In this document: piece after piece, positions 7,951 through 32,642 of the stretch | How positions within the stretch are numbered: position 1 is the stretch's first letter | Layout: each line of letters begins with the position of its first letter | Source: an uncultured Porphyromonadaceae bacterium | Lineage (GTDB): Bacteria > Bacteroidota > Bacteroidia > Bacteroidales > Muribaculaceae | Assembly (NCBI GenBank): GCA_947174995.1 | Contig: CAMWLC010000003.1 | Coordinates: 1-64,000, forward strand | Length of the DNA stretch: 64,000 nucleotides | Direction of reading: 5' to 3' | Notes under the pieces: generated by a model | Told to the model about the DNA's origin: nothing | Databases searched by the model: none | The model's input: the letters and a program-made list of their open reading frames with translations, nothing else | Made by a program: the position numbers and the translations under genes

Positions 7951-10626
7951 CTATTGCGCCTTAATACTGTCGGTCTCCATAAGCAGTCTGTCTCTTGCCT
8001 GAACCATAAGTTTGACTATTGAGTCGGCCTCCTGAGGAGTCTTGGCGTTCTGGAAGTCTTTATACAGGTCCTTGAAGTCATTGTTGTATTCCCTGACTGC
8101 CTCGTATCTCTCGTAAGCGGGAGAATCCTCCAATTCGTCCATCAATTCATCATACCTGTCCTCGTCGCGGTCTTTGAGTCTCCTGATTTTCTTCAGTTGC
8201 GCTGCTGTCTCTTCTGCCTCTTTCAGAAGTTCTTTGGTGCGCTCAGTGTCAAGATGAGAAGAGACACGCTTTTTGATAGCCTTCCTTGCCTTTGTACGCT
8301 GCTTTTCCAATGCCTGTTCCTTATCTTCTTCGGTTCTGACAAAGCCGGTCAACGGTGCGTTTCGTTTTACCTTATACCGGGCAAGCCTTTCAGCAATCAC
8401 TTCCGGCAACTTATCTTTCGGTATAGAAGATATTTCTTCGCCAGACATGCCGATCTCGTCAAAATAAAGTTTGTCTAACTGGCTTTGAGGACAGTTGAGT
8501 ATTCGCATCATACATAGACTTATCTCCCTCGCCGTCCACATGTCGCCTTCGCTCCAGTCCATGATTGCTACGACAGCATCGGTGAGTGTCTGAGGATTGA
8601 ATCCTAATCCAGATTGCACACATAGGTTGATAACGTCGTTCATCGCTTCCGTGTTGTCCCTCCCGAATTTGTCGTATATAGCTTCGAGGTCACTCACCGC
8701 CGGCATTTCTTTAGCCACTCCGCGCAGGCTCATTTCCCCTTTGTGTATCTGGTTCAGGGCTGCGCTGATAGCGTCACCTCCGGTAAGTCCCTCGATGCTT
8801 CCGAACATAGTATGACTCCACACGTCATCCCAGAACTCTTCTTTGGTCTGATCATCTTTGCCGAAGATGAAATAGGGGATATATCCAAACATGTTCCATA
8901 CAAACTGCATCGCCCAGCCGAATATGCCTACCCTTGCAATGTCCCGGTAGATGCCGCGCCGGTATTCCCTTTTTGCATTCTCGGTTGCTTTGTCTGGATC
9001 TATGCCGTCGCGGACCATCTGCTTAGTCATAAATTCAACAGAAAGGTCTTTATATCCCTTCTTGAATCCTACACGCGACAGGTTGCGCATTGCGTCGTAG
9101 AGCTGCCTGGTGTACGACATGGAAGAGTTACGGAATACAGTGAAGAGTACGCTAAGCCATGACCTGTCTACCTGCATCGTGGATAGGAAAGCCCCCTCGC
9201 TCGACTGCTGCGTCTGATTAAAGAGAACTGTCGCGTCCTGCAAAGCTCGTTTTCTCGCTATTTCAGGTGGGTATCCCAATTTCTTATATCTTGCCAGTTT
9301 GCTCTGATACATGGAGCGTGCGCCGATCGCTACCGTCAGAGCGTCCACAAATGCGTTGGGCGACATGCCGACGCGCCCGGCTATCTCAACGATACGATTT
9401 CTCCACATCTTCCAGTCCATTTCTGATTTCATCAGTCGCGGGTCTCCAGACATGCGGCTTTTCCATCGCTTTTCAAACAGAGGCAGGTTTTCCATGCTCC
9501 ACTTCCACGCATTGAAAGGATTGAGAATGTTCTTTGCAAGCTTCAGTATGCTTGTGTCTGAAAGATAGGCCGGCATGGATGCAAACTGTTTCAGTGCCGT
9601 AAACAATCGCAAGCTGACCTTTGCCGCTGTCGCACCCTTTGCCACGTTCACTGCCGCCTTGTCAAGCGGTGCGATAGGTGGCCGGTATGCTCCGGCGGCC
9701 ATTGAAGCCACATTCCGGAAGTTGGTCCAGAGGGTTTTTCCGGCTCCGTATGCGCTTGTCATGTTCATTACCTGATTCCTGAATCGCTTATACGATAACA
9801 GGGTGTTGAGGTCCCGGTTATACTCCGCGAAGGCAGCCCAACGCTCCATCTGCTGTATATGATCCAGAATCACGCTGAAAGCGTCCGCGCCGGTCACGTC
9901 GAGGGCAAGATTGTTCCTCTTGCGCTTGATGATACTCCCAGTTGATGTGGCTGGCAATCCGATTTCTCCGGTGTCATCGGCTACATCCACGTTCTCCACT
10001 CTCGCGTTGGCGAGTATCTTCAGGGGGAAATAGTTCTCAATGGCTGCCATCGACGTGCCGAACATTCGCTTATGCACCTCATTGTAACCGTTCCTCTTCT
10101 CTGTAAGGTATTCCTCCTGCATCCAGTCGGCAAGCTGTATGAATCGCGGATCGACGAAATCCTTTATGCGCTCCACATCGTCCTCCGTGATTCCCATGCG
10201 GCGGAGCTTCATGCGTCCGTCCGTCATTTTGTCTGTCATGTAGATGTAGAGAAGGTTTCCCTGCGTCAGCTCATGGTCACGCATTTCCCCTCCGTCCCAG
10301 AATCTCACGGACGCTTTTGGCATTCGCCGCTCCATGGCGAAGAGGTCGCCCCATTTCATATCCTTGCCGAATACCTCGCTGACCTTTTTGTCGAGGGTTT
10401 TGAGTGCCTCCTGATAGCCGGTGTATTCCTTCTCGGTGCAGTCCACCCATCCGCGCATGTAGCGGTTCCACAGGTAGCCCTCGCCACGGACGTTCTTGCT
10501 TCCGAACATACGCAGCATCTGGTCGAAGGTTCCCAATGGTGCGAGAAAGAAACGTAAGATACCGTTGTTGACAAACTTCTGGAGACGATCGGCCTTGTGG
10601 TGTTCATTAGTTGGCCTTCCTTCCAT
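7951..10626 (-). other. C-terminal region of the giant protein
   Basis: Residues about 6103..6993. This region has the look of the large polyvalent-protein-associated domain LPD38 (helical, with NSSMSYTRQLYDA after a hydrophobic stretch), a membrane-like segment around 6665..6690 (IFGWAMQFVWNMFGYIPYFIF), and a charged coiled coil from about 6890 to the end. The domain name is tentative. Confidence 0.5.
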
Positions 10627-13600
10627 ATCGGAGTTTGCATTATGATGTATCTCTTCCACGCGCTGTTTCTCGGCCTCCCTCCATTGCTTGGCACGCTCCA
10701 CGCTCTCGCCCAATACGCCTCCAAGCTGCTCAGACAGGCTCCGGTACGCCTCCGCACGCTCTATCTTGTTCTGGCGTATGGCGTCGTTGGTCGCCTCGGC
10801 ATACTGCTTGAACGCTGCCCAGCGCGCCCGCTCTTCTTCCTCGATGTCATGGACGAGAAGGTTGAAGTCATGTTCGGTCATGTGTCCTGCATCCTTATGC
10901 GCACGCGCCTCTTCGATGCTCTTCTTCGACTCTTCGGCCTCGGCATTTCTCTCGGCCTTGTAGTCGTCGATGCTCTTGCGGAGTTCCTTTTCTTCGTTCT
11001 TGCTCTCCCGGATTTCCTCTACATACTGGCGTGCTATCTGTAGCCCGGCATATTCAAGTGCGGACTCGTCTGCCACTGCCTGATCCGTGCTGCTCATGCG
11101 GTTTATGGCCTCGGCCATCATGTTGTCAATATCGTCAAGTGTCCGGGTGGTGGCCTTCTTTACTACCTGAGCAATCTTCTGGCCGTCCGGGTCAAGCTCG
11201 CCCTGAACCTCGATGCCTCTTGCATCTATGCGGCTTCCCTTCACGCTCAGGAGCTTACCGAAATAGTTTGCTCCCATGCGTAGCTGATTGTCAACCATGA
11301 TGTCCATAAGGCGTTGCACCTGCTTTGAGGTGTCCTCCCTTCCCACAGCATCCTTTATCGCCGTAAGTATGCGCTTGGTCTCATACTTGCTCAGGTCGTC
11401 GAGAAGTCCTGCGTCCAGAAGGATTTTTGATAGGTCGGTCATTGACTTCACGGTTGTGATGTCATATTCCCTCTGCCGTGCCATTGCCTGGCGTAGCTTG
11501 CTCAGGTTGCCGCCTATCGCTCTCATAGCGTCCTGCTTCGCCTTGAAGTCCGCGCCGTTGGCTGCCGCTGCGTCGGCCTTCATCTTCGTGATAGCCTCTT
11601 CAAGTCCTAAGTCGCCGTCGCGGAAGAGGCGGCTCTCGCTCGCTCCGAAATTGCTCTTCTCGCGCCTTACGATGTCCTCTGCCTCTGTGAAGAAAGACCG
11701 GCGGTTTCCTTCCCGGAGGTTGCGCCATGACTTCCACAGCACATAGCTCCACTCCTTATCGGTCCACGCTCTCATCTTCGGAAGTTTCAGGCCGGCAAGA
11801 AGACGGTCGAGTGCCTTCTGGAGCATCCCTTTCAGTTTCCCCCAGAAGGTCTGTTCCTCTGCGTCCATGCGCTCAAATCCCTCTTCTCCTATCTTCATGC
11901 CGAGGTCGGCCGCATATTCCTCCGTAGCGTCGCGCCTGATCTGCTCTCGCTGCTTCTCTGCCTCAATGCGAGCCTTCGCCATGTCGGAATAGTATTCCTC
12001 TTCCGGATTCTCGCCACGTTCTTCATGCTCCTTCCTCATTCGCTCCCTGATGCGGTCAACCTCATCGTCCATCATCTTCTCAGTACGTCGGTCGATCTCA
12101 GCCTTAATCCTGTCATTGCTGATGTTGTAGGCTTCATCGAGGAAGTTATTGAGCTTTTCTTCGGTGCCGAAAAGTTGACGCAAACCATAATGGCCGACGG
12201 CCTCATGCACTGCAGTGTCGGCAATGTCGCCCACGTTGCGGTGATTGTCGGCCACAACGGTAATCTGCCCGGTCTCGCGGCCATACCAGCCTTTCTTACG
12301 GCGGTAGCCCTCTACCTCGGCTTCCTTTCGGCTGATAACCCTGATAGGAGTATTCAGTTTGTCGCTGAGAAGGGTAACAGCACCCTCCATAGTGTCAGGG
12401 TCGGTGGAGGACAGACGGTCTATCCGTTGGTTGTACTTCGCGATATCGGAGTCTGACAATCCTCCTTCCACTCCGAAATCATGATTACCGGCGGCAAGCT
12501 CACTCTCAACTTCTTTAAGATGCGCCCTCTGATCTTTGCTGACAGAACCTGAAATGCCATGAAACTTTGCGCCTCTCTTCGATAACTCTGCACGCAAGCG
12601 GGGAGGCACTACGTTGAGGGGGAAAGTAACATCTTCCCCGTCGATATGGTCCATAATACGCTCTGCAACCTCGCTCCACGGAACAATGCGCCGAGGTTTG
12701 AAATATCGGGAGAGAACGGTCTGCACCTTCTTGCCGGGCGACAACTGGCCGTTGACACTTCCGGCGTGCCAGTCTGTCAGGCCGACGGCATTCTTCGCTC
12801 CCTCGGCACGATAGCCTGATGTAAGCTCGCTCTCAGGATATTCCCCCTCTACAACAACAAGCTCCGGACGGTCATACGCTGCGCTGAACTGGTCGTTGAG
12901 GGGATGCACGCGAATATGGAAATATGGATTGTAGGCTACATTGCCGGTGGTGCGTCCATTGCCCTGAACGAGATCGGCCTTGCCGTTATCCTTTCGCATA
13001 CCTTCCACACTCTGCTCCCATTCGTTGAAGACCATAGGGGCACGCCAATCCTGCGTTTCGCTGTCAATGGCGGTCATAGGAGGACGCACACCCTCGCGCA
13101 CATAGCCGGTGCCATACTTAGTGAGGCCTCCGGGTACGAACTGGGCATAGCGGTATGCTGACCGGTGTCCCTGAGCGTCGAGGAAATCAAGGCTGTTGCC
13201 TTCGGTAACAAGGCGGCTAAGCTCACGGCCTTTCTGTTTCTTAGTTTCTTCTTCCTCTTCCTCATCGTCCTCATATGTGAAAGTAATGTCGTCGAGGTCG
13301 GCAACTTCTTTATCCATCTCGGCATACTTCTTCTCCTTCGCTGCGAGATCTTCCTGAAGCTTTAGTGTATATTCTTCAAGTAGCTGTCGTAGTTCTGCGA
13401 TGCGTGCTGTATGCTCAAAAGGTTTGCCACGGTCTTTGCTCAGTATCTCGATATTTCTATGATATGCGGCCAGATCATTGGCTTCCCTTTCCCTTACACG
13501 TCTGAATCTGTCAGGGTTTATAAGTTCGAGTATCTCATTTATGTTCGCCTTTAGCCATCTTGATTTGAGAGGGCGGTGGGTTGTGATTCCGGGTATGGTG

Positions 13601-16600
13601 ACGTAAGTGTCAACTGTCACGCCCATGTCTCCCCGGAGGCTCACCATTTGTTGGCTTACCGTACGCTCGATCTCGCCGGGCATTTTCCCTTCTATTGTGA
13701 ATCTGACTACATGCTTGCTTTCGGTTCCGAGATTTTCGGCTCGTTCAATCAATTCTCCAAGAGTCTTGTTATCGTCCTTGAAGAGCTGTTCCATTGAGGC
13801 GGTGCCTTTATTCTTCTTGCCATTTATGGAAATAGTCTTTTCCTTCGGCAATGCCTCTAACATGGCGATTGTTTCGTCGAGTGCTTCAATACGTGCCTCG
13901 GTTTCCTCAATCTTTCTTTTGTATTCAGGTATCTTATAGTAGATATACGTCTGGTGCTGACGGTGATTTTCTTCCTTAGCGATAAGTTTACGCAATTCTT
14001 TCTCGGTCTGATTCTGGAGTATAGCATATTCCGAACCCGAAAGCTCTGCGGTTATCTGACCAAACTCGTCTCCCTCTTCCTCTAACACTCGGTTTTCAAG
14101 GTTGTTTGATAGAAGGGCTTTTGAGTTCATTACAGCGTCAGCAATCGCGCCTTTTGTTTTCAGACGCTGATATGCGGTCACGTCAAGAGAATCCTCTACG
14201 CCGAAGCGAAGGACACGAACAGGTATATCCATTTCCTTATGCAGGTTGCCCTGACGCAAGAGACGACCCATGCGCTGCCAATAGTCCATAGGACGGTTGG
14301 GAGCGTCGAGGTGCATGAGGGTGTGTAGACGCTCCTGTATGTTCACGCCTACACCGAGAAGGGGAGTAGTACCCATTATCACGCGAATTTCTCCGCTGTT
14401 GACACGGGCGAAAATATCCTCCTTCTTCTTTGCGGACATGCCTGAGTTCATTATCCAAATCTGGCTTTCAGGCACGCCGCTCTTGATGAGCTTCTTCTTA
14501 ATATCCTCGAACAGATTAAACTCAACCTTTTTAGTCTCCTTATTCTTCCGCTGATAGTTGTCGGCAAATATAGCGACGGTGCCGTTGTATTTCTCTGTAT
14601 CTTTGAGGGAGCGCAATGTCTGGCGTACTGCTTCATTGGTCTTTGAGTGTGGATCGTCAGGAGCGGACGCACTGACTAATCGCGCGTCAACGGCTGCGGC
14701 TTTCGCTATGCCGTACATGACGAGCGGAATATGAGAGTTCTCTTTCTTCTCCTGTCCGGTCATTTCCTCAAATTCCTTTAGACGCTGACGCACGTATTTG
14801 AGGACGGAACGGAGTGCAGAAGTCTGGGGAAGATGAATGTCGGTAGGCTGGCCGCCTTCAAGAGCCGGAATATGCTTCTTGACTTCTCCTGCCTCATCGG
14901 TCTTGACGGTATCTGCGATTCCTGCCCACAGTCGGGCCATTTCAGGGAGGTTGTTGTACCCGGCGAAACGGTTCACTTCCTTATATGTGCCACTTGTGCC
15001 ATATTCAAGCATCTGCTGTATGCTCCCGAAGTTTCTTACAAAATCATCGAAATACCAAATATTGTACGCCTCCATTTCCTCTTTCGGCATGAGATAGCGC
15101 ATGAACGTCCAAATCTCTGCTGCGGTGTTGGATATAGGCGTACCTGTGGCAAAGACAACATTACGGCCTCCTGACCTTTCCTGAATGGCTTTGACCTTCA
15201 GGAAGAGTCCCTGACATTTTTTAGAGAAGGAATTATCAACACCTTTAACGCCTCGTTGCATGGCTGTGGCGAAACCGAGGTGCTTGTATTCATGAGCCTC
15301 ATCCACAAGTATTGCATCAATGCCGAGATCGTCGAAGTTAAGATTATCGTCGGTTTCGCGCTCCAGCATTTCCTGTGCCTTGATTTTGGCATTGGCCTTT
15401 TTTATGGCCTCCTTCTTTTCATCCTTCTTCTTCTTTTTCTCTTCTTTGGCATGGAGTTCTGCGAGGTCGTCGCGAAGTTTCTCAACCTCTTTCTTCATGT
15501 TGGCAACCATACGGCCATTCTCCCTGTCTTCCGAAAGCTGACTAATGACATCAAGCTTCTCAGCGATAGTGTCCTCAATGAATTTGCGCTTGCGGTCCGG
15601 ATGATCGTCAATCTTTTCAAGCACGGATTGAGGAATGACAACCATGTCCCAGTCATTGTAGCGTATCTTGGCGTAGAAGTCCTTACGGCCTTGTGCGTTG
15701 CGGTCTTTGTCTTCCAGACTGAGTATGCGTGCGTCAGGATAGAGTGCCTTAGCACTCGCCACAAATTGACCGAGTGTAGAGTTTTGCACCACAATCATAG
15801 GCTTCTTTGCTGTGCCGAGTCGCCTCATCTCCATTGCTGTGGTAATGAGGGTGTATGTCTTACCTGTGCCTACCTCATGTGCAAGCATGAGGCTTTGCAT
15901 GGTGCCTCTCACAACTGCCTTTGATTGATGAGGACGCAATTTGAGTGGTTTGCCGTTTACTACCGTGGCCGCTCCTTCAAACCTTTCAGGGACATACTCA
16001 TTTGGTATCTCTATCGGTGCAGAGTTGTTGAACGTGTCGTTGTATTTTTCTTCGATTTCGGTAGCAAGCTTTTCATCCTGCTGCATACGACTGCGAAGCC
16101 ATGAACGGAAATCATCGCGTATCTCATCAACCTTACTTGCACATACCTGAGTAGCGGCGGGGTCAAAGATGGTCTTATCATCTTTTTGAGTTTTCGATAC
16201 CCTTATAGTCTTATTCGTCATGGCTGCAAGTATCAGCTCATGGCCGGGTATGATTTTATCGCACAGGTCACTCTGCACGCCGAATGATTTATCCTTTTCA
16301 GGGATGGAGTCGCCATCAATCTGCATAGTCCATGTTCCGGCGGCATAGGTCATTGAGACATTCAGGTCTGTGCGCTCCTTGATATATTCGTTGAATAGCT
16401 GAGGATTCAGCCATGAGGAACCGATACTAAACTCTATCATGTGGCTTGGTACGGTAGGAGGCACGATGCGACGGAGGGCTGATATGTTTGCATCATACCG
16501 TCCATTCTCGTTATTGGCCTCTGCAAGTCTTAGCTTCTCTCGCACATTACCTGACAGATAAAGGTGAGCCGGTTCCATGATATGAGTTGTGGGATTCTCA

Positions 16601-22600: not shown

Positions 22601-25600
22601 CCGTGTATCTCCACGCCGACGATCTCAGCGTCGATGTCCGCGTCGCTGAATATCTGTTCCACCTCGCGACTGACAATATCCTTCACCTCCTTATGGGTGT
22701 AGCCTTCAAGTCCGGAGATTGGCTTCTCTTTGGTCGCCTCAGCCTTCTTAGGCTCTTCTACGGTGGTGGGGTGGCTGTCAATGTAAGCGGCCACTTCGCC
22801 TAGATAACTGAATGTCTTGTCGTCATACTCAAAGACCGGTCCGGTGTAGTCTCCCTTCCTGTTGGGAGCGTCCACCTGTGTCACGCTGTGCTTGCCGTCG
22901 ATGATGATCTCGCGCTTATAGGTCGGGGTCTTGCTGTCTCCTTCCTCCCAGTCGTTTTCAGTGACCTCCACACGAGCCATAAGGGCTTCCTCATCCGGTG
23001 TCACGTCTTTTTCAGGCTCTGCCGGTGCTTCTGGTTCTACTGCGGCTGGTTCAGGCTCTCCACCGCGTTCAACAGGAGGTTGAGCTTCATCGCCTGTTTC
23101 GCTTCGTCCGGCTTGCTCTGCTGCTGCCTCTTCCGCATCTCGCTTTCTTTGCTCAATGGCAGCGTCCACGAGTGCTTGCTGTTCTTTTGGGGTTGCATTT
23201 CTGAAATGGTTATTTACTAATGTTAATACTTCATTCTTCGACATCGGAGGCATCATCTCTCCATCCTTCGATATGTAATATTGCCCTGACGCGGCTTTCT
23301 GAGCGTTGAAGTTGTAGACTGCAAGCACCTTCCGCACGTCGCTCGGCTTCGCGCTGTTAAGTATGTCTGCGAGTAGGAGGGTAGCTGCGTCGGTTACCCT
23401 GGTATCTTCGAATAGTCCCTGCATCCTGCCGAAGGGAGACACTGGCATCCCCTCCTTGTATATTTTAGGCTGTGTAGTCTTGGCGCGATACACGAGGTCT
23501 ACGGCATTGGCGAGTTCTTTGCTGAGGTCATAGCCTTTCTTTGCAAGTGTACGGTTGCTTGCGATTTCACTCAGCCCCATCACGATTGACTCTCGGAGGG
23601 TTGGCATGGAGATTATCTGACGCACTGCCTCTGGTGCGGAATCGAATGTCTTACCTATTAGTGTGTTCTCGATAAGTTCTTTTCCTGCGGCCGATAGTGA
23701 CGTGCCTGTCCTTAGTTCCGGCATCTGCTTATCGTTGATCACGCCTGCTTGCATCAGTGCGCCCAGAGCGTTTGCAGCAGCAGCCTCGTCGCGGTAATAG
23801 TCTGTAAGCCGGTCATACTTCGCTATGCCTCCGACAATCTCTGCAAATACTTCGTCGGGGACGGTCTTACCAAGTTTCACTGCCGCCTCCTGCTTGCTCT
23901 GTGATTTCATCTCCTGAGCGTTGAAGCGTGAGAAGGTGTTGGCGTCGTATGGCAAATCCTCGTCAGGCACGAAAACGACACGAGGGTGTTTCATTCCTGC
24001 CGCCTGTTCAGGCGTGAATCCATATTTACGGCCATACTTGCTGAGGTATTCCAGATATGCGCCGTCCGTGCCTTGTGTGGCTGCAATGTCTCCGCTCATG
24101 GTGCGGTTGTTGCCGGAAAGTACGATGCCGTCCTTGCTGACGATTACAGGGGTCTGCATTGCCCGGCTGTCGTATGCGTCGGCCATGCTCTGCACCATGC
24201 GCTGTGCGTCATGGTCTCGTTTGTAGTCGCGGTCGTTCACGCTCTGGCCGTGTTTGTCGATCGGGAAACCCTCGGTCGGCTCGAAGGCATTGTTAACGTC
24301 ATGGCTCGCTGAGGCGGCTCCTGCCTCGGTCATGACGTAGTGGCCGGTCAGCGTGCTGCCGTCCGGAAGGGTGATTACGTCAGGGTGGCCGTCTACCTTC
24401 GGGGATGCGTCCCATTTCTCTTTTATCTTCGGATTGACTGCATGGGTGCCTATGCGCTCCTGCTCGGCCTGTTTCTCTGCCTTGATGCGCTGCTCTTCCT
24501 CAAAGCGTGCGACGGCCTCGTCATGGAGCTGTGCGTTTCGTGCTGCCGTCTCTGCCGCTCTTGCTGCGGCTTCCTCGGCCTTGCGACGCTTCTGTGCCTC
24601 TTCTATGGCTTGCCACTTGGCAAGTGTGTTCTTTGCGGCCTCCACTTTGGCTCGTGCTTTTTTGAGATCTTCACGGTATTTACCCATGCCTCCTGTCGGC
24701 TTCACTTTGCCGACGGCCTTTTCTGCGGTCGTGATGGCGGTCTTGGCATTGCCTATCTCGGCCTGAACATAGGCAAGTGCGTCCTCCGGTGTGCCGAAGA
24801 ACTCCGTCGCGGCCTCCCATGCCGTATCTGCATCGACGCTCTCATGTGTCAGGATAGGGTCGCCGGTCTGCTCGTCCACCGGGATTCTCTCCAGAGCCGA
24901 CGGTGCTTTCTCTTCCTCCGGGGCATTGTCAGGACCCGTCAGATGTCCAACCGAAGGGGAGGAAATATTCTCACCGGCATTGATGCCCTCTTCCGGAATA
25001 TTCTCAGGAGCGGCCTGTGATCCTTCCGTTGCCCTGCGCTGCTGTTCATATTCGTATGCCTCCAACCGTCCGCGCCATTCGTCGCTGAGGAAGTCGCGGC
25101 TTCGGAGATCGTCGATGGCACTGTTGAGGATATTGTCGTCAAGCGTAGTCGCAATCTGTGTCCCTTCCTCATAACCTCGGTCATATTCCTGCACGTTGGG
25201 AACGCTTTCAGGTGTTTCCTCTGCCGTATCAGTGGCTAATCCATCGTTTTCTCCGGAATTGAGAACGATTCCGTCACTTTCGGGAACACCCTCGGTTGCT
25301 GCGCTGATGAGTGCTTCCTGCTCCCGGTCTATGGCCTCGTATGCGGTTTGCAGTTCCGTCTGGGGGTCGATGGTCTCACCGACGGTCAATATCTGGTCCG
25401 GTGATGTAAACTTATACTCGCCGGATTCGTCGAGTATGATTACAGAGTCGGAAGAGCTGCGCACGTCCACGCCGCTGCCGTCCGGAAACATGGCAACGTC
25501 CCCCTTGATGATGTAGACCGGCCTGTCGTCGGCCTTCATCGTGGCCGGGACGATAACGCCCCGCTCCTTATGTGTCCGGTGGGCAACCTCACCCTGCACC

Positions 25601-28600
25601 TTCTGACGCTTGTCTGCTGCGGCCTCGTTCGATGCGTCAAGCACTCCGTCAAGAGAGGCTTTGGCGTTGATGTAGTAAAGCACTGCGTCCTTCTGGTCCG
25701 GTGTAAGCTCCGGATCGTTGAGTGTTCCCCACGGATTTTCTTTGATTTGCCACATGTACGCCTCGGCCTCGTCGCCGAAAGCGTCCTCGCAAAGCTGGTG
25801 TGCCTCGGTCATGCGAAGCGATATAGCGTCGATCTCGGCCTGCGCCTCCGGGTCTCCCTGCTCAAAGCGGCCATAAAGAAGGCGGCTGTCCTCATAGATG
25901 CGGTCGGCCTCTGCCTCTTCAGGTGTAGGCTCGTATGTCTCAGGCTCCGGAAACAGCTCGCGGACGTAGCGGTTTACTGCGTCCTTCTCGGCCTCTGTGC
26001 GCTTGCCCGGCTCCTTGCGTATGGCTTTATCTATGTCAACGCCTGTTTCCTGAGATATGCGCTCCCTGATTCCTACCGGGCTTACCTCCGCTCCTGCATC
26101 TGTGTTGCGCTCTATCGCCTCATCTATCATGTCGGCCATAATCCGCTGGTCCTCGGTTACGTCCTTATCACCGCGCCTTACGGCCTCATAGATGTTATAG
26201 ACGGTCTGGGCGTCAGCTCCGGGCGATACTTCATTGATTGCGGCCGCCATGACGCGCTGCTGTGCCTCTGCATTTCGGCATTGCTCGCCTATGTCGATGG
26301 TATTGAGTTCTGATTGGCGGTTGATGCGCTCAATCTCTCTGTCTGCCGCTTCCTTGTTTGAGAATTTACGGGAGGTTACGATTCCTCCCTGTTGGTTGAT
26401 GGAAGAGACGTATATGGTTCCGTCCTCGCCCTTATCCATTGACCAGCCGGCGACGGTTGACATGGGGAGCATACGGCCAGTCAGGATATAATATGCTTTG
26501 GCTCTTGTAGCCTCGCTCACACTCTCGTTCTCCATTAGACGCTCCATTGCTGAATAACCGTCGAATGTAGGGTTTCCGGTCTCGTCAAGTGTCGGCTCGT
26601 AGTCCGCAGCCCTTGAAAAGCCGGTGATGCCTGTGTAGTCTCCTTCTAACTTCTGCGCTGCTGCGGTCTTTCTTGACTTGTGTTCGGGGTCGTAAGTGAA
26701 GAGATTAGAGAGGTCACCGTAGCCTTTTCTCTTCAATTCCTCGCGCTCTTCCTTACTCATGGCAATGTCGGAAGGCGACTGGTCCAGACGCTCACGGAGA
26801 AGTTCTACAAAGCTCTTGTTGTTGTGTATGCGCTCTTCACGCGACAATGGACGGTCGCCTGTCGGCTGTATGGGGCGAAGGCTGCGTATCATGGCCGGGG
26901 CGGTCTTGATTGCATGAGACGCGCCGAAACCCATCATCATCGCCATACTCTCGCTCCATGCGTCTCCCGACATGTCGTTTCTGGCTTCGTTTCTGGCTTC
27001 GGTTTTTTTCTTCTCATCCTCAATCGTGTCATAACCGTACTTCTTGGCATATAGCTTATCAAATTGCTCATCGGGCATAGTCTGAATTGCGTATACGTCG
27101 GGAGCTGCAAAAATAGTACCCTCAAACAGCTTTGAAACTGCCGTCTCTCCTGCGCGTAATGCTATCTTTCCGCCTGTGGAAGTTGCTGCCTTTACCCATT
27201 TGTCCGCTACATTGCCGATAAGGGGAGAGACAACGCCTGTGGCCGCTCCCATGCCTATGCCATGCACACCGCTGTTAAGGACTGAGCCGAAAGAGAAACC
27301 TTCCATTTCTCTTGTCTCCGGATTCAGGTAGCCTCCCTGATACAACTGGCGTTCCGCGTCCTTCACGGCCTCGAATGTGCCGAAGTTGGCACCTCCGGCG
27401 GCCATGCCTCCTATGATGCGTCCTGCAAGGGTTGTGGCGGCATATCGTCCGGCCACGTCTCCCAGTGCCTTTTTCGCCATCATCTTACCTGCGGCTCTTG
27501 TGGCGTTCTTGAAGGCGATGTTTCCTGCCCAGCCTCCCAGATAGGTGGTAGGATCTATCGCCATACCTGCTATCATACCTGCAATATCGAGGCCTCTATG
27601 CTCCGCGCCGTACCTCTCCATTGCGTCAAGCTCTGCGTATGCCTGACCGTATGGGTTAATCGTGCCTGACAAAGCGACGGATGCCGGGTTAAGCTCCAGC
27701 ATCTTACGGACGAAAAATTCATTCTTGCTCTGCGGTCCGTTGCGCTTGACGTATTCCTCATGCACCTGTCCGTACACAACGGATTTAGCTGCGTCCTTCG
27801 CGGCCTGTTCAATGGTTTTGCCGTTTGTGTCCTCCGGGTGTTTGGTGAAATAGTCTGTATATGAGGCTATGAGGTCGCGCCTGTATGCCGGGGGAAGGGA
27901 ATTGTAGGCGTTCTCGGCGATAAGGTTGAGGTCACCGATTCCTGCCTGTTTCCGTGCGGCGGCATGGCCGAGTGCGGCATTGACACCTCCAACCATGTTG
28001 AGGGGGTTGCTCATGTAGGCTTCCTGCTCCTTGTCGCTCAGCTCGTCGTCTGCCTGTACTGCGGCGGCTACTGCCTTGCGTATCGGTGCCTCATAATCGA
28101 GCTGCGCCTGACGCTGCACATCCTCCTGCTTCGACGGATCGAGGCCGTTTTCTTTCATTCGGCTCACAAACTGATTCATGAGCCGGACACGACGTGCGCC
28201 GTATTCGGCTTTATCTGCCTCCATTAAGTCAGTGGTAAGACTGCCGTCGGGCAGGAGCCACTGGGTTTTACGCTGTCCGTCCACCTCAACGACACCATAA
28301 GGCACTGGACCCTGACCGGAAAGAAGAGGTTTCGCCTGTTCGCCGGTCTCTCCCTGACTATTGCCGGAAGGAGAGGCCGACACATCAGGGGTCAATCCCA
28401 TTACCTGTGTGGGTGTACCGGCGAGTTGTGCCTGAAACTTGGCCGCTTTGAGTTTCCTTCGGCCTTCAGGTGTGTTGCGCTCTGCCATGCGTCGGGTCTG
28501 CTCAATCCTCGACCTCGATCTCGCGTTAAAATCGGACAACATGGAGTTGAGGTTATATGCCATCCTGATTTTCTCCTGTTCCGTCGGTTGCCATGTCGGC

Positions 28601-28932
28601 TCTGGAGACGGTGTAGGAATGGAGACAGGAGGCTGTGCCGTCTGCTGAGGTGCTACGGTCTCTGTGGTCGGTTCCTGTGGCTGTGGTGCTGACTGAGGCT
28701 GCACAGGCTTTTCCTGCTTAGGTTGTGGGGCAGGAGCGACAGGAGCATACAGGGCGTTGAAATCGTCCTTGCTACCTACGTCCAATCCCATGCCGACGGC
28801 CTTGTCATAATACCAATCCCTGTCAGCTTGGTTAGCGAGTGAAGAGGTAAACTCCTGTTGGCTGCCAATGTCGTAGCCTTTAGCCCTTAGTTTGTCGTAC
28901 AGCCATTTAATATCTTCGGTGTTGTTAGCCAT
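7951..28932 (-). CDS. 6,993-residue polyvalent phage protein
   Basis: A single open frame of 20,982 bp encodes a protein of roughly 780 kDa. Recognisable modules in order are: paired repeats (8..60), Pro-rich linker (63..117), Gly/Ala-rich hydrophobic segments (about 445..580), coiled coil (1405..1492), DdrB/ParB-like (1493..1925), nucleotidyltransferase (2074..2168), pyrophosphatase-like (2216..2366), nuclease-toxin-like (2385..2535), coiled coil (2870..2960), adenine methyltransferase (3523..3800), SNF2-type helicase (4325..4945), zinc peptidase (5530..5690) and a C-terminal region with a membrane-like segment (about 6665..6690). This mixture is the hallmark of phage and conjugative-element polyvalent proteins, thought to be delivered into the new host with the DNA. 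The start lies two bases after the stop of the 326-aa gene, so translation is probably coupled. The helicase-methyltransferase core recalls DarB of phage P1. Delivery and roles are inferred. Confidence 0.92.
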   Translation of the reverse strand: MANNTEDIKWLYDKLRAKGYDIGSQQEFTSSLANQADRDWYYDKAVGMGLDVGSKDDFNALYAPVAPAPQPKQEKPVQPQSAPQPQEPTTETVAPQQTAQPPVSIPTPSPEPTWQPTEQEKIRMAYNLNSMLSDFNARSRSRIEQTRRMAERNTPEGRRKLKAAKFQAQLAGTPTQVMGLTPDVSASPSGNSQGETGEQAKPLLSGQGPVPYGVVEVDGQRKTQWLLPDGSLTTDLMEADKAEYGARRVRLMNQFVSRMKENGLDPSKQEDVQRQAQLDYEAPIRKAVAAAVQADDELSDKEQEAYMSNPLNMVGGVNAALGHAAARKQAGIGDLNLIAENAYNSLPPAYRRDLIASYTDYFTKHPEDTNGKTIEQAAKDAAKSVVYGQVHEEYVKRNGPQSKNEFFVRKMLELNPASVALSGTINPYGQAYAELDAMERYGAEHRGLDIAGMIAGMAIDPTTYLGGWAGNIAFKNATRAAGKMMAKKALGDVAGRYAATTLAGRIIGGMAAGGANFGTFEAVKDAERQLYQGGYLNPETREMEGFSFGSVLNSGVHGIGMGAATGVVSPLIGNVADKWVKAATSTGGKIALRAGETAVSKLFEGTIFAAPDVYAIQTMPDEQFDKLYAKKYGYDTIEDEKKKTEARNEARNDMSGDAWSESMAMMMGFGASHAIKTAPAMIRSLRPIQPTGDRPLSREERIHNNKSFVELLRERLDQSPSDIAMSKEEREELKRKGYGDLSNLFTYDPEHKSRKTAAAQKLEGDYTGITGFSRAADYEPTLDETGNPTFDGYSAMERLMENESVSEATRAKAYYILTGRMLPMSTVAGWSMDKGEDGTIYVSSINQQGGIVTSRKFSNKEAADREIERINRQSELNTIDIGEQCRNAEAQQRVMAAAINEVSPGADAQTVYNIYEAVRRGDKDVTEDQRIMADMIDEAIERNTDAGAEVSPVGIRERISQETGVDIDKAIRKEPGKRTEAEKDAVNRYVRELFPEPETYEPTPEEAEADRIYEDSRLLYGRFEQGDPEAQAEIDAISLRMTEAHQLCEDAFGDEAEAYMWQIKENPWGTLNDPELTPDQKDAVLYYINAKASLDGVLDASNEAAADKRQKVQGEVAHRTHKERGVIVPATMKADDRPVYIIKGDVAMFPDGSGVDVRSSSDSVIILDESGEYKFTSPDQILTVGETIDPQTELQTAYEAIDREQEALISAATEGVPESDGIVLNSGENDGLATDTAEETPESVPNVQEYDRGYEEGTQIATTLDDNILNSAIDDLRSRDFLSDEWRGRLEAYEYEQQRRATEGSQAAPENIPEEGINAGENISSPSVGHLTGPDNAPEEEKAPSALERIPVDEQTGDPILTHESVDADTAWEAATEFFGTPEDALAYVQAEIGNAKTAITTAEKAVGKVKPTGGMGKYREDLKKARAKVEAAKNTLAKWQAIEEAQKRRKAEEAAARAAETAARNAQLHDEAVARFEEEQRIKAEKQAEQERIGTHAVNPKIKEKWDASPKVDGHPDVITLPDGSTLTGHYVMTEAGAASASHDVNNAFEPTEGFPIDKHGQSVNDRDYKRDHDAQRMVQSMADAYDSRAMQTPVIVSKDGIVLSGNNRTMSGDIAATQGTDGAYLEYLSKYGRKYGFTPEQAAGMKHPRVVFVPDEDLPYDANTFSRFNAQEMKSQSKQEAAVKLGKTVPDEVFAEIVGGIAKYDRLTDYYRDEAAAANALGALMQAGVINDKQMPELRTGTSLSAAGKELIENTLIGKTFDSAPEAVRQIISMPTLRESIVMGLSEIASNRTLAKKGYDLSKELANAVDLVYRAKTTQPKIYKEGMPVSPFGRMQGLFEDTRVTDAATLLLADILNSAKPSDVRKVLAVYNFNAQKAASGQYYISKDGEMMPPMSKNEVLTLVNNHFRNATPKEQQALVDAAIEQRKRDAEEAAAEQAGRSETGDEAQPPVERGGEPEPAAVEPEAPAEPEKDVTPDEEALMARVEVTENDWEEGDSKTPTYKREIIIDGKHSVTQVDAPNRKGDYTGPVFEYDDKTFSYLGEVAAYIDSHPTTVEEPKKAEATKEKPISGLEGYTHKEVKDIVSREVEQIFSDADIDAEIVGVEIHGSRNRGDARPDSDLDIVLEYKGDMKEYAMFNVINETPIEIEGIQVDVNPIRAEETGTLSDYMKKSRSYDEEKQREAAVSAPSLGERIAEAKATVDTEPTEAQKEAGNYRKGHVQVGTFDVTIENPKGSKRSGTDADGTPWETTMTHTYGYIKGTKGVDGDHIDVYLSSDIDDWDGRKVFVVDQYNPDGTFDEHKVMLGFNDRDEAYSAYLSNYEKDWDKGRRLDCTEVNLEDFEKWIGSSKRKTKAFADYKSVDVRHNPPVTDRTTYDRTVPATPEAQRKAITRIIDFAKRVKNRVERAVIGGITKRQARDFAENGIDVDETWVHSFESSAVAHNQKHHGSEKAEAARGQIAIIADDYARIPEILEEYDKVSKSPNKTKGTENEVIIYEKEFGDGYIYYLEEKRDNRKSLAFHTMYKKKKGTDGSDGFAVETTAPITPLATPDNLSSNSDGKDNALQSEKQGKGAESYAGYTITPTEYHGKKKKTPVWVVKFDRDLSYEEKRALVAYMEEPLAEGKKTSRGWLDKESGHFYMRSEEAAKRLAEMPGNEEAVADAQPLSREDYKDAITSSTPEKGDKKPSETGGKKKDSAPGSPMNRVDVEGLFNGLNTKGETKLSGHSTPVKPESAPAKPEPGRLVVDDEMRGMEDELRRLLGIEDSEGDRGDLFKNPEDFTNKERMQITSLGITYALKYFDQGIVSFPDFADRMVRRMGEKIRPWLKAFYGGARDIPGYDHLPFTPADEVRAFDVMNFDRNEKEKGTDPMRTAQGIVAESRAEAAVAEAKKEITEQRNQKRKERDEQTTADTEAIAKQAEATASEAEATAESAVDEQSIAEASEKIDEALEKVNEQLAILGYYEAEHVDKDFNEAYGYMRNAEKKALADAVKLAKQLVKDLGIEIDKVTSSTTAKKSKKRTAVTANIAPAGGDISIRLPLNEGRELSINIYLDPTTKPGDPTFSGDNLQVSGIMYRVETPNGTGHDRYGSNSWASVDGTYSELLHMIQRETYRYLPDRSAEGGEYRSGDSIQYSSNGGKSWTDGKVVEVNHDGSLKLDTGLAPVLYVNATQEQVRRKEEVAKAAPGKKEPEKPQYPDPKDKEAVSDWLSDNSAAIWEGVDAITKDAKADTDLRNTFKATNDDSIKEADLSDFVERWLADRIEDMMELHPATVKAWYDYDQQGIILSTIAGRIEDALAKEAKKDRENETVNGYKRGDEVLWDRYGNGQWEKQTITDFDEAGRPILDSFGQNWITEVADWGRIKPVEGKEPKQETPAETPESATEKAIETLTGKKRPVKKTEVKPKQVVGDLFGGLFDEPAKNEKETELQTRPGTGERAEGHEPRQDEPVGTSQRNEDGGTDGGGMAGRNGGDTGSDSGRGSAVSPISSEHAVSPEKRDEPLTRLPQKQRRNRNNHVIKRGSEIAPASVDARIRANIEAIETMKRLTSSGADATAEDMAKMRAFSGWGGLGKAFSDYHLSRRLRQLLGEEAFAEDAQMSRNSAYFTPGYVVDAMWDVAKGLSFRGGNVLEGSAGVGNIIGLMPPELSDRSAIQAVEKDTTTGSMLSLLYPDAKVDVQGFEETKIQNGSIDLAITNVPFVPGLRVKDTTGDHDLSKRFKDIHNFCIAKNVRKLRDGGIGIFITTKGTLDSAGGLYNWLTNEGNADIVGLFRLHNETFGGTDATSDIIVVRKRVNGQKSEHAIDASATTGVRTADYDDGKKTVTRSLSYNRYFVEHPEHMAGEMKFGFETGNTYRPTSVALHPVKGKDQARMLKAWVKEMSKKTFEEPEAVTEPTNHREEYVPTYDNAGVEVKTGSMQVDSKGRICVNYDGVLRPLMSDFDKKKPKSEEERIAQFNKNKVKGRTRPQVIADYNEIKKALNELLDYQKNNESDEGLQKYIDNLNSAYDRFVGYYGHLHRNPSISLLKNDVDFPSVLALETYREEGIDHTPVFGKADIFRGRVMARMETPKPQSIKDGVILSIRQTGDLNIDYIAEALGKPVDEVKKDIIKQGLGYENPTTHIMEPAHLYLSGNVREKLRLAEANNENGRYDANISALRRIVPPTVPSHMIEFSIGSSWLNPQLFNEYIKERTDLNVSMTYAAGTWTMQIDGDSIPEKDKSFGVQSDLCDKIIPGHELILAAMTNKTIRVSKTQKDDKTIFDPAATQVCASKVDEIRDDFRSWLRSRMQQDEKLATEIEEKYNDTFNNSAPIEIPNEYVPERFEGAATVVNGKPLKLRPHQSKAVVRGTMQSLMLAHEVGTGKTYTLITTAMEMRRLGTAKKPMIVVQNSTLGQFVASAKALYPDARILSLEDKDRNAQGRKDFYAKIRYNDWDMVVIPQSVLEKIDDHPDRKRKFIEDTIAEKLDVISQLSEDRENGRMVANMKKEVEKLRDDLAELHAKEEKKKKKDEKKEAIKKANAKIKAQEMLERETDDNLNFDDLGIDAILVDEAHEYKHLGFATAMQRGVKGVDNSFSKKCQGLFLKVKAIQERSGGRNVVFATGTPISNTAAEIWTFMRYLMPKEEMEAYNIWYFDDFVRNFGSIQQMLEYGTSGTYKEVNRFAGYNNLPEMARLWAGIADTVKTDEAGEVKKHIPALEGGQPTDIHLPQTSALRSVLKYVRQRLKEFEEMTGQEKKENSHIPLVMYGIAKAAAVDARLVSASAPDDPHSKTNEAVRQTLRSLKDTEKYNGTVAIFADNYQRKNKETKKVEFNLFEDIKKKLIKSGVPESQIWIMNSGMSAKKKEDIFARVNSGEIRVIMGTTPLLGVGVNIQERLHTLMHLDAPNRPMDYWQRMGRLLRQGNLHKEMDIPVRVLRFGVEDSLDVTAYQRLKTKGAIADAVMNSKALLSNNLENRVLEEEGDEFGQITAELSGSEYAILQNQTEKELRKLIAKEENHRQHQTYIYYKIPEYKRKIEETEARIEALDETIAMLEALPKEKTISINGKKNKGTASMEQLFKDDNKTLGELIERAENLGTESKHVVRFTIEGKMPGEIERTVSQQMVSLRGDMGVTVDTYVTIPGITTHRPLKSRWLKANINEILELINPDRFRRVREREANDLAAYHRNIEILSKDRGKPFEHTARIAELRQLLEEYTLKLQEDLAAKEKKYAEMDKEVADLDDITFTYEDDEEEEEETKKQKGRELSRLVTEGNSLDFLDAQGHRSAYRYAQFVPGGLTKYGTGYVREGVRPPMTAIDSETQDWRAPMVFNEWEQSVEGMRKDNGKADLVQGNGRTTGNVAYNPYFHIRVHPLNDQFSAAYDRPELVVVEGEYPESELTSGYRAEGAKNAVGLTDWHAGSVNGQLSPGKKVQTVLSRYFKPRRIVPWSEVAERIMDHIDGEDVTFPLNVVPPRLRAELSKRGAKFHGISGSVSKDQRAHLKEVESELAAGNHDFGVEGGLSDSDIAKYNQRIDRLSSTDPDTMEGAVTLLSDKLNTPIRVISRKEAEVEGYRRKKGWYGRETGQITVVADNHRNVGDIADTAVHEAVGHYGLRQLFGTEEKLNNFLDEAYNISNDRIKAEIDRRTEKMMDDEVDRIRERMRKEHEERGENPEEEYYSDMAKARIEAEKQREQIRRDATEEYAADLGMKIGEEGFERMDAEEQTFWGKLKGMLQKALDRLLAGLKLPKMRAWTDKEWSYVLWKSWRNLREGNRRSFFTEAEDIVRREKSNFGASESRLFRDGDLGLEEAITKMKADAAAANGADFKAKQDAMRAIGGNLSKLRQAMARQREYDITTVKSMTDLSKILLDAGLLDDLSKYETKRILTAIKDAVGREDTSKQVQRLMDIMVDNQLRMGANYFGKLLSVKGSRIDARGIEVQGELDPDGQKIAQVVKKATTRTLDDIDNMMAEAINRMSSTDQAVADESALEYAGLQIARQYVEEIRESKNEEKELRKSIDDYKAERNAEAEESKKSIEEARAHKDAGHMTEHDFNLLVHDIEEEERARWAAFKQYAEATNDAIRQNKIERAEAYRSLSEQLGGVLGESVERAKQWREAEKQRVEEIHHNANSDMEGRPTNEHHKADRLQKFVNNGILRFFLAPLGTFDQMLRMFGSKNVRGEGYLWNRYMRGWVDCTEKEYTGYQEALKTLDKKVSEVFGKDMKWGDLFAMERRMPKASVRFWDGGEMRDHELTQGNLLYIYMTDKMTDGRMKLRRMGITEDDVERIKDFVDPRFIQLADWMQEEYLTEKRNGYNEVHKRMFGTSMAAIENYFPLKILANARVENVDVADDTGEIGLPATSTGSIIKRKRNNLALDVTGADAFSVILDHIQQMERWAAFAEYNRDLNTLLSYKRFRNQVMNMTSAYGAGKTLWTNFRNVASMAAGAYRPPIAPLDKAAVNVAKGATAAKVSLRLFTALKQFASMPAYLSDTSILKLAKNILNPFNAWKWSMENLPLFEKRWKSRMSGDPRLMKSEMDWKMWRNRIVEIAGRVGMSPNAFVDALTVAIGARSMYQSKLARYKKLGYPPEIARKRALQDATVLFNQTQQSSEGAFLSTMQVDRSWLSVLFTVFRNSSMSYTRQLYDAMRNLSRVGFKKGYKDLSVEFMTKQMVRDGIDPDKATENAKREYRRGIYRDIARVGIFGWAMQFVWNMFGYIPYFIFGKDDQTKEEFWDDVWSHTMFGSIEGLTGGDAISAALNQIHKGEMSLRGVAKEMPAVSDLEAIYDKFGRDNTEAMNDVINLCVQSGLGFNPQTLTDAVVAIMDWSEGDMWTAREISLCMMRILNCPQSQLDKLYFDEIGMSGEEISSIPKDKLPEVIAERLARYKVKRNAPLTGFVRTEEDKEQALEKQRTKARKAIKKRVSSHLDTERTKELLKEAEETAAQLKKIRRLKDRDEDRYDELMDELEDSPAYERYEAVREYNNDFKDLYKDFQNAKTPQEADSIVKLMVQARDRLLMETDSIKAQ
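11863..12345 (-). other. Zinc metallopeptidase domain of the giant protein
   Basis: Residues about 5530..5690. HEAVGH at 5576..5581 supplies two zinc-binding His and the catalytic Glu. Glu5671 or Glu5672 in TEEYAAD is the likely third ligand, giving a gluzincin layout. It could cut host proteins or release modules of the giant protein itself. Confidence 0.85.
14098..15960 (-). other. SNF2-type helicase domain of the giant protein
   Basis: Residues about 4325..4945. Walker A GTGKT starts at 4355, the DEAH box is 4544..4547, motif III appears as ATGTPISN near 4600, and motif VI as QRMGRLLRQ from 4886. A lysine-rich coiled insertion sits between motifs Ia and II. It is a complete superfamily 2 ATPase, probably a DNA translocase. 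Confidence 0.92.
17533..18366 (-). other. N6-adenine methyltransferase domain of the giant protein
   Basis: Residues about 3523..3800. FSGWGGLG begins at 3563. The SAM-binding motif VLEGSAGVG begins at 3627. The catalytic motif reads NVPF at 3694..3697 in place of the usual NPPY/F. The layout followed by an SNF2-type helicase is typical of large phage and mobile-element methyltransferase-helicases. It could mark incoming DNA against restriction. Confidence 0.85.
21328..21780 (-). other. Nuclease-toxin-like domain of the giant protein
   Basis: Residues about 2385..2535. The pattern HSF-HNQKHH, then GQIAIIADDYARIPEIL, IIYEKEFGDGYIYYLEE and SLAFHTMYKKK resembles the phage Barnase/EndoU/colicin/RelE-like nuclease group (PBECR-type). 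An RNase activity against host RNA is possible. Assignment is by pattern and moderately sure. Confidence 0.6.
21835..22287 (-). other. Inorganic-pyrophosphatase-like domain of the giant protein
   Basis: Residues about 2216..2366. The stretch GYIKGTKGVDGDHIDVYL carries the acidic residues Asp2268, Asp2270 and Asp2273 expected of the InPase domain of polyvalent proteins. It may pull forward the nucleotidyltransferase reaction of the preceding domain; that link is inference. Confidence 0.75.
22429..22713 (-). other. MNT-type nucleotidyltransferase domain of the giant protein
   Basis: Residues about 2074..2168. The motif GSRNRGDARPDSDLD starts at Gly2111 and carries the metal-binding acidic pair (Asp2123, Asp2125). 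A third acidic residue is in IQVDVNPI. Such domains transfer nucleotides to proteins or RNA; the target here is unknown. Confidence 0.85.
23158..24456 (-). other. DdrB/ParB-like domain of the giant protein
   Basis: Residues about 1493..1925. The signature SGNNRTM at 1606..1612, preceded by TPVIVSKDGIVL, and the later FNAQEMKSQSKQEAAVKLG fit the DdrB-type ParB domains common in polyvalent proteins. A DNA- or nucleotide-binding role is likely from family knowledge. Confidence 0.75.
27193..28932 (-). other. Giant protein N-terminus: repeats, linker and hydrophobic segments
   Basis: Two copies of a motif (WLYDKLRAKGYDIGSQQEF at 10..28 and WYYDKAVGMGLDVGSKDDF at 40..58) repeat at exactly 30 residues. 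A Pro/Gln-rich linker follows to about 117. Segments rich in Gly, Ala and large hydrophobics at about 445..580 (for example GMIAGMAIDPTTYLGGWAG and GRIIGGMAAGGANFG) resemble membrane-inserting parts of phage ejection proteins. Their function here is inferred. Confidence 0.6.
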
Positions 28933-28934: not shown

Positions 28935-29915
28935 TTATTTTCTTCTGCTGGGTGGTACATTATCATCGTTGCCTCGTCTGCTTGGTGGGGTATTGTCTTT
29001 TGGCTTAGGTCTTGCCGGTTGCCCTCCCTTCTTGGTCGTTGTGGCCGTCTGGGAAGAGTGTCCGTTGGTTTCATCGTCGCGGTCGGTTGTTGTCGATGAT
29101 GTTATATCCTCTTCTTGCCATGTGCCGTGCTGCTTGGCAAAGCGGTCAGCGGCCTCCTTAGTCCGGAAGGAATGAGGGTTGCCGTTTTCGTCCCATGCCG
29201 TATATTCCTTAGCCTCGCTTCGATCATGCGCTCGTGCTGAGGCCATTGAGTTTGCTGCGGATGCACGGTAAGAACCTGCCCTTGCCGATTCCGTGGCATT
29301 CTTTAATTGTAGCTCCTGCGGCTTATTCTCAGCCTCGTATTGTGCCGCTATTGCATCCTGTTCCGCTTTATCGGCCTTTCCTTTCTGTTCTCGCTGTTTG
29401 TCGGGTTGTAAGAGTGCTTGCCAACTGTGTGCCTCTGCATCACGCTCGGCCTTCTCCCTTGCAAGCTTCTGCGCCTCATGCTGCGCCCTCATGTCGCGGA
29501 TCGTCTTGGCCTTTGCGTTCTGTGCGTCACCCAGACGTAGCATATAATTGTTGTAGCGGTCAGCGTCGGCCTGTCTCTCGGCCTTTAGAGCCTCGATGCG
29601 CTCGTTGACCTTCCCCAGATGGGAGGATTGGGGATTGTAGGCATTGGGGGCGTATTGGGTCGTAAAGAAGAGATTGGAGAGGGCTGACAGGCCATCGACG
29701 GTTGCGGCGATTACCTTCTTGGACTTCTCCATTCTCTCACGCTTTTTCTTCTGCTCCGGGGTCTCCTGATTCACGGCGGCGGCTGCCGCTTTGAGGGCGG
29801 CAATCTGCTCGTCGTAGCCCATTACGGCCTCCTGTTCCGACATGGGGGAGGTGGTGGGCTCCTGAGACGTTGCAGGTGCTTCCGGGGTCTGCTCGTTGAT
29901 CTCGTCGTTTGTCAT
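28935..29915 (-). CDS. Probable internal virion protein (326 aa)
   Basis: I do not recognise a named family. The protein is Ala/Gln/Glu/Lys-rich and almost entirely helical. It has an acidic disordered N-terminus, a hydrophobic patch (VIAATVDGLSALSNLFF at about 68..84), long coiled coil from about 95 to 235, and a disordered C-terminus rich in Thr, Pro and Lys ending PPSRRGNDDNVPPSRRK. It lies between the 165-aa protein (18-base gap) and the giant protein (2-base gap), so the three form one transcription unit. By gene order it would be the counterpart of T7 gp15, part of the DNA ejection apparatus. That role is inferred from context. Confidence 0.75.
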   Translation of the reverse strand: MTNDEINEQTPEAPATSQEPTTSPMSEQEAVMGYDEQIAALKAAAAAVNQETPEQKKKRERMEKSKKVIAATVDGLSALSNLFFTTQYAPNAYNPQSSHLGKVNERIEALKAERQADADRYNNYMLRLGDAQNAKAKTIRDMRAQHEAQKLAREKAERDAEAHSWQALLQPDKQREQKGKADKAEQDAIAAQYEAENKPQELQLKNATESARAGSYRASAANSMASARAHDRSEAKEYTAWDENGNPHSFRTKEAADRFAKQHGTWQEEDITSSTTTDRDDETNGHSSQTATTTKKGGQPARPKPKDNTPPSRRGNDDNVPPSRRK

Positions 29916-32579: not shown

Positions 32580-32599
32580 AATCTGTGATGTTTAGATTT

Positions 32600-32642
32600 G
32601 GTACTTTTGGTACTTGATTTTTACGAGTACCAAAATAGTACC
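32600..32642 (-). promoter_or_regulatory. GGTACT dyad in the integrase leader
   Basis: TTTTGGTACT (32605..32614) and AGTACCAAAA (32626..32635) form a perfect 10-bp inverted repeat with an 11-base spacer. Outer half-copies (GGTACT at 32600, AGTACC ending 32642) extend it. It lies just downstream of the predicted transcription start, the right place for a repressor, an integrase autoregulatory site or an RNA hairpin. Confidence 0.6.

Follow-up and report, generated by a model that had tools for sequence, protein, structure and literature searches.

A 6,993-residue polyvalent protein encoded beside the portal gene of a temperate Muribaculaceae phage, a likely ejection protein

The window analysed here, a stretch of 64,000 nucleotides from an uncultured Muribaculaceae bacterium, opens with a prophage in which one intact gene encodes a protein of 6,993 residues. 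This giant is likely an ejection protein of a temperate Muribaculaceae phage with a P22-type portal, although its packaging, injection, unfolding and domain activities are inferred. We regard a polyvalent protein delivered together with the DNA as the best, and a likely, explanation. Delivery is supported indirectly, because an ejection cassette lies beside the portal gene, cysteines are depleted as in ejection proteins, and the core of the chain is DarB-like. The literature searched yielded no virion proteomics, either of this phage or of a Bacteroidales relative. What is shown is the intact reading frame, the selection acting on it, the gene order, the domain matches, the conserved motifs and the cysteine depletion.

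The theme of polyvalent proteins entering with DNA is known (Iyer 2017; PMC5512222), as are very large ejection proteins (PMC8402733) and the 5,553- and 5,391-aa members of the isolated Bacteroides phages BKO1-TP3 and BS-TP4. As far as this analysis shows, four things are new: giants in the size range of 6,000-7,400 aa, an N-terminal module that marks them, a constant cassette with two partners, and cysteine depletion as their signature. The lineage forms a testable class of Bacteroidales phages whose injected chains are predicted to be 4.4-7.4 thousand residues long, reaching beyond the 5,007-aa phage record quoted in 2021. The cysteine signature offers a simple way to test from sequence whether a protein is injected, and the cassette hints at how protein cargo gets addressed into virions. 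Virion proteomics and infection assays are within reach, because the isolate genome of Muribaculaceae Isolate-037 contains a near-identical copy.

A giant frame kept whole in a truncated prophage

The giant is encoded by a single uninterrupted frame on the minus strand (Table 1), whose ATG start sits right behind the stop of the upstream gene. Its predicted mass is 783.5 kDa and its pI 5.3. The first-pass annotation, made without database searches, had claimed one 20,982-bp frame, 6,993 residues and nearly 780 kDa, and all three held. It had also warned that an assembly artefact fusing separate genes would refute it. This rival, a chimeric fusion of several phage genes created by assembly or annotation, draws on that caution and on the origin of the window in an assembly of 82 contigs (2.45 Mb). 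We looked for such a fusion through relatives and dN/dS, and it was not borne out. The core of a 6,922-aa gene in the Isolate-037 genome (contig coverage 97x according to its title) is 88% identical to that of the window giant. Compared with this relative, dN/dS was 0.16 overall (6,707 codons compared) and below 0.35 in every 250-aa window with estimable dS, a pattern that fits one long protein kept whole along its full length. Together with 21 other complete relatives of 4.4-7.4 thousand aa from independent assemblies and data sets, this all but excludes an artefact.

When 200 related genomes were searched at the protein level, 44 proved to contain the core, several of them inside equally long frames; relatives' frames measured there were 6,922, 6,534, 6,806, 6,001, 7,285 and 7,358 aa long, and complete relatives in public viral contigs span 4.4 to 7.0 thousand aa. 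The median of the 22 complete giants, window member included, is about 6,490 aa, and the window giant is the third longest. The earlier description of it as extremely long therefore needed correction, since within its own lineage it is not exceptional. A record length was likewise rejected within the lineage, since the 7,285- and 7,358-aa relatives exist, and a plasmid polyvalent protein of 12,242 aa has already been reported. Two related records deserve mention. In IMGVR_UViG_2893967813_000002, two frames of about 2,420 and 2,114 aa stand in place of a single giant, through either a true split or a sequencing frameshift. Assigned to a Clostridia MAG, the contig JAAUYS010000012.1 shares 82% identity with the core of this Bacteroidales phage and is probably misbinned.

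The window is the start of contig 3, window base 1 being contig base 1. The prophage occupies bases 1 to about 32.7 kb, truncated by the contig end on one side and abutting the 3' end of mnmE on the other; this mnmE junction was found once in the source genome. The giant was previously said to take up two thirds of the visible phage. It does fill about 64% of it, but this figure merely reflects the truncation of the prophage by the contig end, and the gene's true share is about one third. In the near-identical complete prophage of Isolate-037, the giant accounts for about 20.8 of roughly 59 kb. That prophage lies within a 445-kb contig (~251 to 310 kb, with ends set by gene content) and shares 83-91% DNA identity with most of window 1-31 kb. 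A search for the rest of the prophage in the source genome with one tail protein of the related prophage gave no match.

Several observations concern the surroundings. The integrase and its site have been swapped between the two prophages (window 31428-34148 versus G102:C14 308442-312878, G102 being the Isolate-037 genome): the window phage sits at mnmE and its sister beside a pyruvate phosphate dikinase-like gene, with different integrases. Contigs 79, 74 and 80 of the source genome carry pieces up to 50-53% identical to BKO1-TP3 gp44 (2,638 aa), which adjoins a reverse transcriptase in BKO1-TP3; these are likely a further phage. In BKO1-TP3 and BS-TP4, genes labelled "tail spike protein" occupy the position of the window's terminase, on the strand opposite the portal, and are probably mislabelled terminases.

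Table 1. Positions in the window of the giant, its domains and the neighbouring prophage genes
Feature	Position	Strand	Basis or remark
Giant polyvalent ORF, 6,993 aa, 784 kDa	7951..28932	-	ORF call, purifying selection
N-terminal module, aa 1-65, two ~32-aa repeats	28738..28932	-	marks giant ORFs
Linker, aa 66-330, Pro/Gln/Ser/Thr-rich then charged	27943..28737	-	sequence
Gly/Ala-rich amphipathic region, aa 331-690	26863..27942	-	kept among relatives
ddrB-ParB domain, aa 1563-1650	23983..24246	-	in 15/17 aligned members
Pol-beta/MNT-type nucleotidyltransferase, aa ~2091-2161, GSRNRGDARPDSDLD motif	22450..22662	-	domain match, motif
InPase domain, aa 2210-2347	21892..22305	-	E 2e-54; in 15/17 aligned members
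PBECR3 RNase-like domain, aa ~2420-2532	21337..21672	-	E 1e-19
LPD36-like (GWGG) and adenine methylase, aa 3520-3830	17443..18375	-	NVPF at aa 3694, YFTP upstream
SNF2-type ATPase, aa 4327-4895	14248..15954	-	GTGKT; DEAH at aa 4544
Zincin-like peptidase, aa 5500-5700	11833..12435	-	HEXXXH at aa 5576-5581
C-terminal region, aa 5801-6993 (~1,190 residues)	7954..11532	-	no family-library match
Major capsid protein (SU10-type)	773..2299	-	
Terminase large subunit	3782..5923	+	
P22-like portal protein	5937..7883	-	directly downstream of giant
326-aa partner gene adjoining giant (gp15 position)	28935..29915	-	sister-prophage counterpart without cysteine
165-aa T7 gp14-like internal virion protein	29934..30431	-	sister-prophage counterpart without cysteine
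Integrase	31428..32579	-	mnmE at 32793-34148

Domain anatomy and its variation

The giant carries several domains of unrelated biochemistry on one chain and so meets the criterion for a polyvalent protein. The consensus of its N-terminal repeats is LYDxLxxxGYxxGSxxEFxxxL. The DarB-like LPD36-methylase-SNF2 stretch covers aa ~3380-5265 (SNF2/Helicase_C E 2e-9/1e-10), and PHROG 10089, "DarB-like antirestriction", matches most of it. As the criterion for a DarB-like dyad we used an LPD36 GXG(G/A/S) motif, then a methylase with TP and NPP(Y/F), then an SNF2 ATPase; the giant meets it in the order GWGG, YFTP, NVPF (a variant of NPPF), GTGKT and DEAH.

The first-pass domain list held for the ParB-like, nucleotidyltransferase, pyrophosphatase (InPase), nuclease-like (PBECR3), methylase and SNF2 parts. 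The claimed zinc peptidase region has no Pfam match, but the claim held on its HEXXXH motif: H5576, E5577 and H5581, together with the downstream glutamate E5672, are invariant across 17 aligned sequences. The "hydrophobic parts" were corrected to Gly/Ala-rich amphipathic stretches, as no canonical transmembrane helices were found in the giant. No Pfam family for a single-subunit RNA polymerase domain like that of N4 vRNAP matched the giant. It also shows no sign of a transglycosylase domain, and database searches linked it to neither T7 gp16 nor P22 gp16. Searches of Pfam, NCBIfam and PDB with its N- and C-terminal parts returned no ejection protein, and a PDB profile search with the C-terminal part produced nothing of use. 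That the giant works like T7 gp16 or P22 gp16 without being filed as one is thus an inference without sequence homology behind it.

Mapping 32 relatives onto the window giant revealed three layers. The methylase-SNF2 core is present in 31 of them and the peptidase region in 28; InPase and ParB are widespread; the N- and C-termini exist as alternative types. The C-termini fall into at least two types, alike in their last ~110 aa, and LPD38 occurs in eight other members. The swapped cargo includes LPD14, PBECR1, PBECR2, PBECR3, NTase, MutS-I, ART, RadC, LPD38 and MuF-C, and among the 17 aligned members the window giant alone has PBECR3 in its N-terminal part. Pol-beta NTases were listed by Iyer et al. 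as confined to conjugative-type polyvalent proteins; the window giant and two other phage giants extend that list beyond the conjugative type.

Two further giants illustrate such variation. The near-identical giants of the window and G102:C14 differ wholly in their first ~100 residues (window 28.6-29.4 kb), a clean N-terminal swap with the repeat module in the former and a "YSITTSDGKTH" module in the latter. The source genome itself holds a second prophage-type giant on contig 20 (34829 onward), with a related N-terminal module. It runs for 4,053 aa up to the contig end, has 10 cysteines and the same two partner genes upstream, and carries different cargo and another helicase type.

Ejection cassette and cysteine depletion

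Gene order was read only in relatives with flanks available. There, a gp14-like protein of ~160-190 aa, a protein of ~290-410 aa, the giant and a portal of ~650 aa follow each other. A search with the N-terminal module alone served as an independent test of this cassette. The module was found in 25 of 198 family genomes, mostly at the start of very long frames, and at all 13 loci examined (13/13), including giants without the methylase-SNF2 core, the gp14-like gene and the second partner lay directly upstream. The Pfam family T7_gp14 matched seven of nine gp14-like homologues (best 2.8e-6); the window protein scored 24.1 bits, below the cut-off of 27, and a PDB profile search with the gp14-like family gave nothing useful.

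Being encoded among virion genes, the giant also meets the criterion for a phage-type polyvalent protein. In Vibrio phage VvAW1, a P22-like late operon continues with a "DNA transfer protein" and ends in a 3,640-aa relative of the giant, in the region where P22 has its ejection genes 7, 20 and 16; the relative itself takes the place of gene 16. In the database entries of 8P and BcepMigl, the giant or genes next to it are annotated as structural or virion-associated.

A separate argument for virion location from the InPase domain was weakened. The domain matches the solved portal of Pa193 (9b41, E 8e-28), but the modelled portal comprises residues 94-528 and the InPase-like part, residues 637-762, lies outside it. 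The Pa193 observation stands on its own: gp19 of this long-tailed Pseudomonas phage ends in an InPase-type domain not covered by the model, and phage portals can carry an InPase cargo domain too.

The virion gene cluster, the large size and the Gly/Ala-rich amphipathic regions could also suit a structural tail or tape-measure-like protein with the enzyme domains as passengers, and two gp14-like homologues weakly match a tape-measure PHROG. We consider this very unlikely: the portal is P22-type, no long-tail genes were recognised in the visible part of the phage, and the active-site motifs of the methylase, ATPase and NTase are intact.

Among its 6,993 residues the giant has 12 cysteines, where the sister prophage's other genes would predict 98 (P 2e-28) and host genes in the window 52. 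DNA composition is not the cause, because TGT and TGC together occur 12 times in frame versus 169 and 241 times in the other two frames, and tryptophan (TGG) is normal at 1.1%. Nor is size the reason, because another large BKO1-TP3 protein has 31 cysteines in the 2,271 residues read. In both the sister prophage and BKO1-TP3, the two partner genes have no cysteine and the portal is normal.

The same signature recurs in established ejection proteins. T7 gp15 (747 aa) and gp16 (1,318), P22 gp7, gp20 and gp16, and N4 vRNAP (3,500), gp51 and gp52 have no cysteine, versus 0.7-1.2% in other genes of these phages. The giants of BcepMigl (4,658), SopranoGao (4,369), VvAW1 (3,640), Microcystis phage Mwe-JY07 (4,985) and Pavtok (5,007) also have none, that of Atu_ph08 one and that of 8P two. 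As negative controls, non-giant SNF2-methylase homologues contain 0.76% cysteine and plasmid-type ones 0.40%; the giant lies below the latter only about twofold (P 6e-4). The marker is not clean. Of the small T7 proteins, the internal protein gp13 has three cysteines and gp6.7 one in 88 aa; P1 DarB shows only partial depletion; and cysteine is missing from the N4 major capsid protein as well, so absence is not exclusive to ejected proteins. The giant itself meets the marker as strong depletion, not as absolute absence. Cysteine absence as an ejection marker is proposed in this analysis and is not an established criterion. In the papers searched for it, the word cysteine does not occur; the search was limited, and we do not claim absence from the literature. 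We infer that the loss reflects selection on chains that cross a narrow channel unfolded and then an oxidising periplasm; Casjens and colleagues have argued that giants of the Pavtok type have to be unfolded, at least in part, for their passage (PMC8402733).

Two further rivals can be weighed against these results. In the first, which remains possible, the giant is a polyprotein-like precursor that its HEXXXH peptidase cleaves ahead of packaging; just a subset of the pieces is then packaged and no 784-kDa chain is threaded. The invariance of the motif and the retention of the peptidase region among relatives favour it, as does P1 DdrB, which is packaged after processing to a 76-kDa form (PMC5512222). 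Against it, N4 vRNAP contains such a domain too and yet is packaged without processing (PMC5512222), and the cysteine depletion extends over the giant from end to end, confined to no single part. In the second, the protein is not packaged but made from the prophage or after infection and acts in the producing cell, to exclude superinfecting phages or to take over the host. That polyvalent proteins may be captured and turned against rivals is allowed for by Iyer and colleagues, and the enzymatic domains would function in either setting. This reading is unlikely in view of the position and strand of the gene among late virion genes beside the portal in the relatives checked, and because the giant and both partners, unlike the portal, show cysteine loss of the ejection type.

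Proposed delivery and comparison with known systems

In the preferred reading, delivery of the whole chain with the DNA, the giant would be made late in infection and loaded at the portal during head assembly together with its two small partners (T7-gp14-like, ~165 aa; ~326 aa), probably through its N-terminal module. On infection, the partners would form, or help form, a conduit, and the giant, in a few copies at most, would be threaded out via the portal largely unfolded, with or ahead of the DNA. Cysteine loss may be an adaptation to this threading, leaving no disulphide traps in the virion or periplasm. After refolding in the cytoplasm, the DarB-like methylase and SNF2 translocase would act on the incoming DNA and protect it from restriction; protection in cis against type I restriction is inferred for this dyad by analogy with P1. 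The ParB-like, PBECR3, nucleotidyltransferase and pyrophosphatase domains may act on host nucleic acids and nucleotides, with the HEXXXH peptidase possibly cleaving the chain into functional units.

The first-pass annotation had pictured a portable kit entering with the DNA, an idea that the cassette position, the cysteine depletion and the DarB-like core support, and had asked how so large a protein could be packed. That puzzle is milder than stated. P22 injects 12 gp7, 12 gp16 and 30 gp20 (PMC8402733), by arithmetic ~24,000 residues or ~3.5 copies of the window giant, so a comparable load is not prohibitive. A bolder reading, which we hold only tentatively and would not yet favour, takes the ~65-residue module and the two cysteine-free partners as a general address and conduit system of Bacteroidales phages for swappable payloads of 4,000-7,400 residues, with cysteine loss as a readable signature of injection.

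Known systems resemble the giant to different degrees. N4 gp50/gp51/gp52, T7 gp14-gp15-gp16 and P22 gp7-gp20-gp16 each comprise a large protein encoded in a cluster with smaller partners; these sets are injected, and their large members are cysteine-free, as the giant nearly is. However, no homology to the giant was detected, and their enzymatic content is different. P1 DarB (2,255 aa), a virion head protein with antirestriction activity (PMC5512222), has the same LPD36-methylase-SNF2 order, and P1 DdrB has a ddrB-ParB domain and a peptidase (PMC5512222). In P1, however, the functions are split over several proteins of a long-tailed phage, and DarB retains 9 cysteines.

Closer are the giants of Pavtok, SopranoGao/LASTA, BcepMigl and Atu_ph08, which share the DarB-like methylase-SNF2 core at 27-30% identity, lie at the end of the virion gene cluster and have zero or one cysteine. 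Erwinia phage Pavtok gp27 (5,007 aa), which carries a transglycosylase annotation, was described in 2021 as the longest phage protein known (PMC8402733). Giants of this type are ~2,000 residues shorter and show little or no detectable similarity to the window giant outside the core. The closest systems are those of the Bacteroides phages BKO1-TP3 (gp55, XPO94969, 5,553 aa) and BS-TP4 (gp3, 5,391 aa). Both proteins are shorter than the window giant, and BKO1-TP3 gp55 has no match to window residues 2903-3380 and most of the C-terminal 1,200. Nevertheless, both phages have the cassette as in the window, and gp55 shares a core 50% identical over 1,900 residues, an InPase region 69% identical and a related N-terminal module.
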